42,233 nt of DNA, from assembly GCA_017436575.1 (NCBI GenBank), contig JAFSCU010000025.1:1-42233 (forward strand). The letters are read 5' to 3'. The translations under genes and the position numbers were made by a program. Every line of letters begins with the position of its first letter. Within the stretch, counting starts at the first letter, position 1. The stretch comes from Oscillospiraceae bacterium. Lineage in GTDB: Bacteria > Bacillota > Clostridia > Oscillospirales > Ruminococcaceae. The notes below the pieces were generated by a model, which saw only the letters and a program-made list of their open reading frames with translations, was not told the origin of the DNA and did not search any database. Positions 9,406 to 39,638 of this stretch are shown in pieces.

Positions 9406-9429
9406 TGTAGATTGCACAATATCAGCAAA

Positions 9430-9523
9430 ACTTCCTACGCCGGCATTACCCGGATCAGGTTCAAGGTGACAAGGAACTGCAATTTGCTCCAATCTCAGCC
9501 GAGGATGCCCTCAGCGCCCCTGT
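9430..9523 (-). promoter_or_regulatory. TPP (THI-box) riboswitch
   Basis: Read on the minus strand it shows the conserved THI-box blocks in order: CAGGGGCGCTGAGG, GGCTGAGATT, ACCTTGAACCTGATC, CCGGGTAATGCCGGCGTAGG. The two ends pair as P1. The aptamer is followed by a terminator and the salvage operon thiW-thiM-thiE-thiD. Confidence 0.97.
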
Positions 9524-9539
9524 TTTTATGTATGGTTTT

Positions 9540-25263: not shown

Positions 25264-25308
25264 CAAAATCACAATTGAGTTGACAGTTAGATAATGCTAA
25301 CTTATAAT
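25259..25308 (+). promoter_or_regulatory. promoter of a predicted small RNA, twin of the zip promoter
   Basis: Perfect TTGACA (25280-25285), a 17-base spacer and TATAAT (25303-25308). The spacer holds the perfect inverted repeat GTTAGATAATGCTAAC (25286-25301). TGTGACAAAATCACA (25259-25273) lies upstream, overlapping the spo0A stop codon. Elements, order and spacing match the zip promoter at 24238-24288. Confidence 0.75.
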
Positions 25309-25314
25309 ATAGTC

Positions 25315-25422
25315 AAACAAAGCGAAAGGGAACGCTTTAAGAAGGAATAAAAAGCCATTAACTCCTCACTTCAAAAGTAGAATAAATTATACGTAAAAGG
25401 CCTGTTTCACAGGTCTTTTATT
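25315..25422 (+). ncRNA. predicted small RNA of about 108 nt
   Basis: It lies between a consensus promoter (-10 at 25303-25308) and a terminator hairpin, AAAAGGCCTG/CAGGTCTTTT (25395-25419) followed by ATTGT. There is an internal hairpin AAAGCG/CGCTTT (25319-25338) and then a single-stranded, A-rich part. No ATG, GTG or TTG frame with a ribosome site exists in it, so it is probably noncoding. The terminator may also serve spo0A. The promoter similarity suggests co-regulation with the ZIP transporter. Confidence 0.55.
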
Positions 25423-25506: not shown

Positions 25507-25535
25507 TTGACAAAACTTTGTCAAAGTGGTATAAA
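25507..25535 (+). promoter_or_regulatory. promoter of the lysine-riboswitch transcript, with palindromic operator
   Basis: TTGACA (25507-25512), a 17-base spacer and TATAAA (25530-25535). The -35 box is part of an 18-base perfect palindrome TTGACAAAACTTTGTCAA (25507-25524), likely a repressor site in addition to the downstream riboswitch. Confidence 0.75.
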
Positions 25536-25558
25536 TAACTCATCACACAAAAGTGATA

Positions 25559-25716
25559 CAGATAGAGGCGCGGCAACGAATAGTAAACTGCAGAGGGGGC
25601 ACCCGGTGAAGCAGCTGAAAGGCAAAGCCGCCGAAATTGGCACAGAGGCATCTGTTCCGGTTGGTACAACGGTCAATACCGGATGTACTCCTGTTAAAAA
25701 ACAGAGGGGCTATCAG
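25559..25716 (+). promoter_or_regulatory. lysine riboswitch (L-box)
   Basis: Conserved L-box blocks in order: GATAGAGGCGCG (25561), AGTAAACTGC, GGTGAA, GCTGAAAGGCAAAGCCGCC GAAA, and the closing GGGGCTATC (25706-25714), which pairs with GATAG as P1. The layout matches the B. subtilis lysC leader (GATAGAGGTGCG ... GGCTGAAAGG ... GTCGCCGAAG ... GGGCTATC). It is followed by a terminator and then by the amidohydrolase gene, not by a lysine biosynthesis or transport gene. Confidence 0.92.
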
Positions 25717-25739
25717 AAACTTATAAACTGTTGCGTTTT

Positions 25740-25774
25740 AAAGGTTCTGCATAGCTGCAGGACCTTTTCTTTTT
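25740..25774 (+). terminator. riboswitch-controlled terminator
   Basis: A 12-bp stem AAAGGTTCTGCA/TGCAGGACCTTT (one G-U pair) with loop TAGC, then TCTTTTT, lying between the lysine aptamer and the amidohydrolase start. It points to transcription shut-off when lysine is bound. Confidence 0.88.
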
Positions 25775-25820
25775 AGAAAAATTCTGCGCTACAAACATTT
25801 ATTATTGCGGAGGAAATTTT

Positions 25821-27428
25821 ATGAACACAATCTATTTTAACGGTAACATTTATGTAGAAAGAGACAGATTTGTACAGGCAATGCTGGTTTCAGACGGTCT
25901 GGTACAGAAAATCGGCACATTGGAAGAAGTTACAGAAGGTCTGTGCCCAAAATGCGAAAGAGAAATGATCGACCTGGAAGGCAGAACAGTTGTTCCTGGT
26001 TTTAACGATTCCCACTGCCACGCACTGAACACAGGTAACTCCCTGTCATGCGTTATTCTTCATGGTTCAACATCAATGGAAGAAATCATTGCAAAAGGCC
26101 GTGCTTTTATGGAAGAACATCCTCTTAAAGAAGGTGATGTACTGGTAGGCCGCGGCTGGAACCAGGACTATTTTGCAGAAGGCCCTGCACTGCCAACAAG
26201 ATATGACCTGGACAAAATCACAACAGAATATCCTGTTGTTTACACACGTGCATGCGGTCATATGCTGGTATGTAACTCCAAAGCTCTGGAAGTTGCAGGT
26301 ATCACAAGAGATTCACAGCCACTGCCAGGCGGCGAACTGTACAGATTCGAAGACGGCGAACCAAATGGTCTGTTCGCTGAAAATGCACAGAGAGTTATCC
26401 AGAATATCATTCCTGTTGATTCAGCAGAATCTCTGTCTGAAAAACTGAATATTGCTATGGCATACGCAGCAAGCCTGGGTATCACAACAGTTCAGACAAA
26501 CGACATCGGCCGTGAAAACTGGAGACTTACAAACCAGGCATTTGAACTTACATTTGCAAACAACCCTAATGCTATCCGTGTTTACAGCCAGAATACATTC
26601 TCTGAACCTGTAACATATCAGGACTTCCTGGATGCTGGCCATGTAACAGGCAGCGGTACAGATATGTTCAGATATGGCCCTCTGAAAATGTTTGTTGACG
26701 GCTCCCTGGGCGCACGTACAGCTCTTATGAGAAACCCATACGCCGACGACCCAACAACTTGCGGCGTTCCAACAATTCCAGTGCCAGATTTTGAAGCAAT
26801 GGTAAAAATGGCTGATGATAACAACTGCCAGGTTGCTGTTCACGCTATCGGTGACGGCGCTATTGAAATGGTTCTCAATGCTTACGACAAAGTTATCGAA
26901 AACGGCAACAACAAAAACCGTCATGCAGTTGTGCACGCACAGATTACAGACAACGAAATGCTGGAAAGATTCAGAGCAAGTGATGTTCTGGCACAGGTAC
27001 AGCCAATCTTTATCCACTATGATATGAATGTTGTTGCAGAACGCTGTGGTGAAGAACTGGCATCTACATCTTACGCATTCGGCGACCTGTTCAGAATGGG
27101 CGTTCACACATCCTATGGTACAGACTCACCTGTTGAAAACCTGCAGCCATTCGAAAACCTGTACTGTGCAGTTACAAGAAAACGCCTTGACGGCGCACGC
27201 ACATACCGTGAAGACCAGTGTGTTGATATTTATGATGCTATCGACCAGTACACAATCGGTTCTGCTTATACAGAATTTGCAGAAGACAGAAAAGGCCGTC
27301 TTATGCCAGGTTACTTTGCTGACTTTGCAGTTCTGGACAGAAATATCTTTGAAGTTCCAGCAGATGAAATCAAAGATGTTAAATGTGTAAGAACAGTTGT
27401 TGGCGGCAACACAGTATTCCAGAGATAA
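25821..27428 (+). CDS. YtcJ-like metal-dependent amidohydrolase under lysine riboswitch control
   Basis: 535 aa, amidohydrolase-3 family. The metal site starts with NDSHCHALNTG (HxH), and later ligands are visible in QVAVHAIGDGAI and HAVVHAQITD (His) and YGTDSPVENLQPF (Asp). Family enzymes hydrolyse amide or related C-N bonds in small molecules; the natural substrate is unknown. There is no signal peptide, so it is cytoplasmic. Strong ribosome site GGAGGAAATTTT. Codon use is that of a highly expressed gene (mostly GCA, ACA, GTT, AAC), unlike its neighbours. The lysine riboswitch suggests a role in making, salvaging or importing lysine equivalents, for example hydrolysing an acylated or peptide-linked precursor. 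This is inference. Confidence 0.88.
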   Translation: MNTIYFNGNIYVERDRFVQAMLVSDGLVQKIGTLEEVTEGLCPKCEREMIDLEGRTVVPGFNDSHCHALNTGNSLSCVILHGSTSMEEIIAKGRAFMEEHPLKEGDVLVGRGWNQDYFAEGPALPTRYDLDKITTEYPVVYTRACGHMLVCNSKALEVAGITRDSQPLPGGELYRFEDGEPNGLFAENAQRVIQNIIPVDSAESLSEKLNIAMAYAASLGITTVQTNDIGRENWRLTNQAFELTFANNPNAIRVYSQNTFSEPVTYQDFLDAGHVTGSGTDMFRYGPLKMFVDGSLGARTALMRNPYADDPTTCGVPTIPVPDFEAMVKMADDNNCQVAVHAIGDGAIEMVLNAYDKVIENGNNKNRHAVVHAQITDNEMLERFRASDVLAQVQPIFIHYDMNVVAERCGEELASTSYAFGDLFRMGVHTSYGTDSPVENLQPFENLYCAVTRKRLDGARTYREDQCVDIYDAIDQYTIGSAYTEFAEDRKGRLMPGYFADFAVLDRNIFEVPADEIKDVKCVRTVVGGNTVFQR

Positions 27429-27462: not shown

Positions 27463-27495
27463 AAAACAGGGTGAACAATCACCCTGTTTTTAATT
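27463..27495 (+). terminator. terminator of the amidohydrolase gene
   Basis: A 12-bp perfect stem AAAACAGGGTGA/TCACCCTGTTTT with loop ACAA, followed by TAATTTT. Confidence 0.9.
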
Positions 27496-38609: not shown

Positions 38610-39638
38610 ATGAAAAAAGTAATTGCACTTGCTCTGTCAGTAGTTATGGCTCTCTCCCTCGTTGCTTGCGGCGGCGAACCAGCAGCTCCAGCTAAATTCA
38701 AAGTTGGTATGGGCCACAACATTTCTGCTAAAATGACAGACGCTACAGCAGACAAAGCAGGTTCTGCACAGGTTGATACAACAATGCTGGTTGCAGCATT
38801 CGACGCTGAAGGCAAAGTTGTTTCAGTTTCTATCGACGTTGCACAGCAGAAACTGGGTGTAAACGCTGACGGTACAACTGCAGATGCATCTAAAGTTGAC
38901 ACAAGAACAAAAATCGAAAAAGAAGGCGACTACGGCATGGTAGGCGCTTCCGGTATCGGCAAAGAATACTTCGAACAGATCGAAGCTCTTGAAAACTGGA
39001 TGGTAGGCAAAACTGTTGAAGAAATCGTTGGTATGCCAGTTATGGACCGTGGCGATGGTTCACACACACACGTTCCAACAGATGCAGACCTGGCAGCAGG
39101 TTGCACAATCACAGTTAAATCCTACCTGGATGCTCTTCAGGAAGCTTGGGACACAGCTGTTGAAGTTGAAGGTCTTGCTAAAGCAGGTCTTGGTCAGAAC
39201 ATTTCCGTAAAAGGCACAGCTGCTACAGCTGACAAAAAAGGTTCTGCACAGGTTGACACAAACATGGTTGGTGTAGCTCTTGACGCTGAAGGCAAAATCC
39301 TGTGGGCAAAAATTGACGTTGCTCAGCAGAAAATCGCATTTGACGCAACAGGCGCAAAAGCTGGCGATGTTGATGTAAGAACAAAAGTTGAAAAAGAAGG
39401 CGACTACGGTATGGTAGGCGCATCTGCTATCGGCAAAGAATACTTCGAACAGGTTAAAGCTCTGGGCGAATGGATGGTAGGCAAAACAGTTGCTGATGTT
39501 GCAGCTATGGAAACATTTGACCGCGGCGACGGCTCACACACAGACGTTCCTGCAGTTGAAGACCTGAAAGCTTCTGTAACAATCACAGTTGGTGCATACC
39601 TTGACGCTCTGGTAGAAGCAGAAACAAACGCTAAATAA
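38610..39638 (+). CDS. tandem-repeat lipoprotein of unknown function
   Basis: 342 aa. A lipoprotein signal ends LSLVAC, with the lipid Cys at 20, followed by GG. The mature part is two repeats of about 150 residues (about 29-180 and 181-342). Shared landmarks are GSAQVDTxM, DAEGK, IDVAQQK, EKEGDYGMVGAS-IGKEYFEQ, WMVGKTV, and DRGDGSHTxVP. I know no function for this repeat; the pattern is loosely like FMN-binding extracellular domains but lacks a clear flavinylation motif. Codon use (AAC, GTT, ACA, GCT) and a strong site GATGGAGGAAAATTATC suggest very high expression. Gene stands alone. Confidence 0.85.
   Translation: MKKVIALALSVVMALSLVACGGEPAAPAKFKVGMGHNISAKMTDATADKAGSAQVDTTMLVAAFDAEGKVVSVSIDVAQQKLGVNADGTTADASKVDTRTKIEKEGDYGMVGASGIGKEYFEQIEALENWMVGKTVEEIVGMPVMDRGDGSHTHVPTDADLAAGCTITVKSYLDALQEAWDTAVEVEGLAKAGLGQNISVKGTAATADKKGSAQVDTNMVGVALDAEGKILWAKIDVAQQKIAFDATGAKAGDVDVRTKVEKEGDYGMVGASAIGKEYFEQVKALGEWMVGKTVADVAAMETFDRGDGSHTDVPAVEDLKASVTITVGAYLDALVEAETNAK

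Follow-up and report, generated by a model that had tools for sequence, protein, structure and literature searches.

A lysine riboswitch subclass with an altered pocket floor accompanies a YtcJ-like amidohydrolase and may control a salvage route

What a lysine riboswitch (L-box) controls when the only gene behind it encodes an amidohydrolase is the question raised by this locus. The original prediction held that known L-box targets are confined to lysine biosynthesis and transport, and proposed from this exception that a lysine-repressed hydrolase frees lysine or a precursor from an amide-linked form. The first premise was too narrow, as the available parts of two published reports (PMC5584792, PMC11477304) already describe lysine riboswitches linked to other kinds of amidohydrolase. 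The proposal itself was examined using the window (the whole analysed stretch of 42,233 nucleotides) together with L-boxes from related genomes.

All elements of the locus lie on the forward strand. A promoter (TTGACA-N17-TATAAA, 25507-25535), with its TTGACA element and TATA box equally spaced in 8/8 loci of the genus, is followed by an aptamer at 25555-25720 that matches the RF00168 covariance model at 74.2 bits (E 1.1e-17; gathering score 30), bearing out the L-box recognised earlier from sequence and fold. The intrinsic terminator predicted ahead of the gene is likewise present: located by hairpin folding and a terminator scan, it spans 25740-25774 with its T run, and its hairpin (25740-25767) has a folding energy of -16.2 kcal/mol (z -6.06 vs 200 shuffles). 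The 3' strand of helix P1 (25709-25720) can alternatively pair with the 5' arm of the terminator (25743-25755), forming an antiterminator hairpin (25709-25755) that competes with it. Sharing of the P1 3' strand with an antiterminator is the usual layout of an OFF switch acting by transcription termination. Among the 40 scanned loci of the aptamer subclass defined below (C141), 34 have a hairpin and T run starting at most 100 nt from the aptamer end, and six have none within that distance.

A ribosome-binding site (GGAGG, 25809-25813) precedes the YtcJ-like amidohydrolase gene (25821-27428). Because a probable terminator (27463-27491, assigned by eye and absent from the terminator-scan listing) and a gene for a BspA-type leucine-rich repeat protein come next, the amidohydrolase transcript is likely to be single-gene. 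The gene's codon usage is typical of strong expression, as had been noted: with a single long ORF, taken by eye as pyruvate:ferredoxin oxidoreductase, as the reference, its CAI of 0.68 ranks second among 29 mechanically picked ORFs of the window.

Other features were seen in the same stretch. The highest codon adaptation in the window (CAI 0.81) belongs to a lipoprotein-like ORF at 38610-39638 (+), and a TPP riboswitch lies at 9415-9531 (-; 63.4 bits). At the aptamer promoter, a TTGACA..TGTCAA palindrome occurs in the closest strains only, and a short hairpin immediately 5' of P1 (ATCAC..GTGAT, 25542-25557) has arms that co-vary in genus relatives (AACACC..GGTGTT). Further upstream, a promoter agreeing with the sigma-70 consensus at 12 of 12 positions (25280-25308) is followed, about 100 bases on, by a hairpin and T run at approximately 25398-25420 (by eye), which suggests a short transcript within 25280-25420, between a Spo0A-like gene and the L-box. 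In the genus relatives used for comparison, this promoter and hairpin element fails to align.

The 535-residue product scores 346.2 bits against Amidohydro_3 (PF07969). In keeping with the complete metal site ascribed to it, residues H65, H67, K289, H341, H372 and D435 align with the metal-site motifs of 3igh and 3icj, the closest solved structures, both of uncharacterised proteins. Conservation of these six residues is at least 95% among 30 aptamer-linked homologues and at least 90% among 29 others; H147 is also conserved among homologues. The predicted structure of the enzyme was of poor quality (mean pLDDT 46.7, 7 sequences). In a tree that includes one gene with an in-frame stop (L123) and one with two undetermined residues read as X (L121), and from which partial genes (L035/L113, L040 and L045) were left out, the 30 aptamer-linked enzymes and two unlinked ones form a single clade with 100/100 support. 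The two unlinked members, from genomes G084 and G043, have no L-box nearby. No L-box was found in the flanks of up to 1.5 kb around 23 homologues outside the clade, a distance that can miss an aptamer because a permease may stand between. Around a homologue from Acetoanaerobium noterae (41.6% identity, L263) there was no RF00168 match within 8 kb on either side; that locus carries a RAGATH-18 RNA (72.4 bits, L263 16016-16077).

The pairing of aptamer and hydrolase, which the original prediction proposed to look for in other genomes, is conserved. An orthologue at a minimum of 71% identity is present in 8/16 genomes of the genus, including the window's own (one is split over two contig pieces), and an L-box lies directly upstream of it in all eight. 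The DNA upstream of the promoter differs among the species of the genus, so promoter, aptamer and gene stay together independent of gene order. The pairing is also found in all seven genomes with a homologue at 47-51% identity in a 100-genome sample of the family. Rfam score, covariation and conservation across the eight genus genomes rule out a chance match or artefact.

The aptamer departs from the lysine riboswitch in the floor of its pocket, a feature absent from the earlier description. Thermotoga maritima positions were placed on the window aptamer by conserved motifs. On its 5' side the floor reads U140, C141, C142 (25689-25691) and on its 3' side G160, A161, G162, G163 (25704-25707), so that floor base G141 is replaced by C and its partner A162 by G. 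In the T. maritima structure, the purine quartet G11-G163-G141-A162 forms the floor of the lysine pocket, and G141, unlike A162, is listed among the highly conserved positions in the available part of that report (PMC3764141). All eight amidohydrolase-linked aptamers of the genus read ACTCC..GAGGnGC, that is C141, C142, then G160, A161, G162 and G163, and the remaining 21 genus aptamers have G141. Both types co-occur in all eight genus genomes with the amidohydrolase gene. Loops are short in the genus aptamers, in the region of the L2-L3 kissing loop and P2 kink-turn.

A model built from the eight genus aptamers (R1) was searched in 396 family genomes. Apart from one G141 aptamer that precedes a lysA-like gene (L106, 74.0 bits), all matches of 73 bits or more share the C141 signature. 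Those read at the next ranks were G141 aptamers, scoring no more than 58.6 bits, and a single C141 aptamer cut by a contig end (L110), which was excluded; matches below about 49 bits are mostly unread and may hold more C141 members. Together with order-level matches, one phylum match (G434), one Clostridia MAG and a Sutterella genome, this gave 41 full-length C141 aptamers from the window's family, other families and Sutterella. A DNA pattern scan of 398 phylum genomes matched in 44; on inspection by eye, all matches other than those in the window and G434 were judged to be noise.

C141 and G162 stand in place of the G141 and A162 of the RF00168 quartet in 41/41 of these aptamers, and all 41 retain the pocket-lining bases G11, G80, A81, G114, U140 and G163, as listed in the available part of PMC3764141. 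Standard pairs fill 93.1% of pair cells and two-sided changes occur at 26/37 pairs, counts that lean towards the model to which the alignment was fitted. G141 was read by eye in 70/70 aptamers of a phylum sample drawn from high-scoring matches (a script had assigned G141 to 54 of them, in some cases at the wrong position, and made no call for the other 16). As C141 members score as RF00168 (13 matches in relatives at 59.6-86.2 bits, and one at 99.1 bits), they are hidden inside that family, and the window aptamer is accordingly filed by structure as an RF00168 subclass with putative lysine sensing.

The floor bases also vary elsewhere. Of five G141 L-boxes preceding lysC or dapA-dapB-dapD (L249, L251, L254, L257 and L258), all but L257 carry a base other than A at the A162 site, which shows that biosynthesis aptamers can vary there. 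In genome G835, an L-box whose 141 site is C and whose P5 region and junction diverge (L252, C6:18420-18604, -) lies before a lysA-like gene; it was placed in neither the C141 nor the G141 target count.

The two aptamer types differ in their targets. The amidohydrolase is the first gene in 16/41 C141 loci, among them one with two copies in tandem (L253) and one with a 58-residue permease remnant ahead of it (L122, genome G236), and it follows a LAT-type permease in another 15. The LAT-type permease alone is in view in 2/41 loci, one cut by a contig end and one in Sutterella, where permease and amidohydrolase each stand behind their own C141 aptamer. YfcC with an M20 amidohydrolase accounts for 4/41 loci, NhaC for 3/41 and a LysP-type permease for one (PRK10836, 881.8 bits vs a cut-off of 735), a model formerly named as the lysine transporter. 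The M20 enzyme of the four loci scores above the TIGR01891 cut-off and has HmrA and Xaa-Arg dipeptidase as its nearest solved proteins. Permeases were compared with NCBIfam at L126 and L259 only; the other LAT-type, NhaC and YfcC genes were assigned by tblastn.

A lysine biosynthesis gene comes first in 0/41 C141 loci vs 38/66 G141 loci (Fisher p 3e-11, kinship not accounted for), with asd, lysC, dapA, dapB, dapD and lysA named by motif or eye, without HMM. The script's count of first genes in 58 distinct G141 loci comprises asd (30), NhaC (12), ABC binding protein (11), YfcC (4) and one unresolved; it omits twelve family loci that are all G141 (L065, L187, L188, L191, L193, L196, L198, L204, L206, L216, L222 and L223). 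Eight further G141 loci precede lysC, dapA or lysA, and this amidohydrolase is first in none of the 65 of 66 G141 loci with a resolved first gene. NhaC and YfcC families are found under both aptamer types. At three loci (L135, L136 and L141, from G284, G163 and G048), two convergent NhaC genes are 56-58% identical; a C141 aptamer precedes one only, the second having no L-box within the fetched stretch.

The Sutterella genome (LR994475; L121, L259) belongs to the Pseudomonadota and also has both aptamer types: three of its aptamers are C141, and a single G141 aptamer precedes dapA-dapB-dapD. Its amidohydrolase falls inside the Clostridia clade of the tree, which suggests transfer of the gene between phyla.

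Whether a lost lysine transporter accounts for the arrangement had been named in advance as the point on which the proposal could fail. A LAT-type permease intervenes between aptamer and hydrolase in relatives (15/41 loci, with the remnant in L122), and the genus has no close homologue of it (best 29% identity), so a permease was lost and the hydrolase kept under the switch. In part, then, the suspicion of a lost transporter is borne out. As a whole explanation, transporter loss was rejected in part, since the hydrolase stays under the switch without the permease.

We favour, at a probability of roughly 55%, the reading that the C141 aptamer is a lysine-class OFF switch specialised for salvage, with a hydrolase that would split an imported N-acyl or amide conjugate and so release lysine or a closely related compound; such a release is also, by analogy with related enzymes, the most likely role of the hydrolase. 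When ligand is scarce, the P1 3' strand would pair into the antiterminator and the amidohydrolase would be strongly made; with ligand bound, P1 would close, the terminator would form and the gene would be off. A conjugate would thus be imported and split by the hydrolase and the freed compound sensed, amounting to product repression of a salvage route, and the C141 subclass with its rebuilt floor would serve uptake and salvage genes, not lysine biosynthesis. This reading is suggested by the OFF design and by a gene set that combines amino-acid-type transporters with either of two unrelated amide hydrolases. Lysine is the simplest candidate ligand, given that the bases lining the pocket are retained and that one target is LysP-type. 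Against the salvage reading stand the replacement of G141 together with a distinct gene set, the breadth of PF07969, the clade members in G084 and G043 without an L-box, and a genus without a close LAT-type permease homologue through which a conjugate could enter. The lysine-releasing route first proposed is thus supported in part. The conserved pairing, the 16 loci with the hydrolase first and the existence of YtcJ-like epsilon-lysine acylases speak for it; lysine as the ligand is less certain, as the pocket floor is altered.

In variant riboswitches, changed specificity usually shows itself by the replacement of a conserved base along with a gene set of its own, and with an altered pocket floor lysine is not certain to be the ligand. 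The C141 aptamers might instead be a separate class that arose from the lysine aptamer and senses another, related basic compound (e.g. ornithine or an N-epsilon-modified lysine), with the permease and YtcJ-like hydrolase as its dedicated pathway in gut bacteria. Such a change is possible though rather unlikely: the coordinated floor changes in 41/41 aptamers, the two types side by side in 8/8 genus genomes with the gene and in Sutterella, and the lack of biosynthesis targets (0/41 vs 38/66, kinship not accounted for) would fit it, but the pocket-lining bases are retained, the two types share NhaC and YfcC families as targets, and the LysP-type permease among the C141 targets argues against it. 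The G835 L-box, with C at the 141 site in an otherwise different junction before an apparent lysA, also speaks for lysine as the ligand.

A riboswitch that is really part of an operon for a lysine transporter, with the amidohydrolase a leftover lacking any lysine-related role, is improbable. The intervening permease in 15/41 loci, its remnant in L122 and the lack of a close homologue in the genus could be explained in this way, yet several lineages keep the hydrolase without the permease (16/41 loci), the two have separate aptamers in Sutterella, promoter, aptamer and gene remain together despite differing upstream DNA among genus species, and the codons are typical of strong expression. Similarly improbable in our view is a substrate without lysine, such as a bile salt, formamide or lactam, with lysine merely reporting nitrogen supply. 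Here the biosynthesis genes missing from the C141 target set, and partner transporters and an alternative M20 hydrolase that fit amino-acid conjugates, weigh against the broad substrate range of PF07969, which includes NfdA, aminoacylases and metalloBSH, according to the available part of a 2026 preprint that reports a taurine bile-salt hydrolase of this family (PMC13081902).

On the salvage reading, the closest functional parallels to the enzyme are SmELA, ScELA and SgELA (EC 3.5.1.17), which are also YtcJ-like metal-dependent amidohydrolases and free lysine from N-epsilon-acyl-lysine (PMC10699109, available part). Metal-residue order and rough spacing agree; the likeness was judged by family and metal-residue order, and acylase activity of the window enzyme is putative. 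Those three are Streptomyces enzymes, with no riboswitch reported in the available part of that paper. The C. difficile yfcC locus, with an M20D amidohydrolase under a lysine riboswitch (PMC11477304, available part), likewise places a transporter and an amide hydrolase behind an L-box, and the four C141 loci with YfcC and an M20 hydrolase resemble it in gene content; the window hydrolase belongs to a different family, PF07969. Searches of the open-licence literature turned up neither a lysine riboswitch with a changed pocket nor one with a YtcJ-like target.

With the lysine riboswitch itself (RF00168; T. maritima, 3dil), the window aptamer has in common the P1-P5 layout, the pocket-lining bases and terminator control, and differs in C/G for G141/A162, the junction GAGG before P1 and the YtcJ-like target. 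Should the ligand prove to be lysine, a whole subclass would show that a highly conserved base in the floor of the lysine pocket can be exchanged, and an uncharacterised enzyme group would gain a likely job in freeing lysine from gut conjugates. The guanine/2'-dG and SAM/spermidine variant classes, for which a new ligand was demonstrated by binding (PMC9295807 and PMC10853860, available parts), differ in this from the C141 subclass, which is defined by sequence. What they share with it is a small number of coordinated changes close to the pocket, together with target genes of their own, and if the ligand of the C141 aptamers does differ, a new riboswitch class would lie concealed within RF00168.
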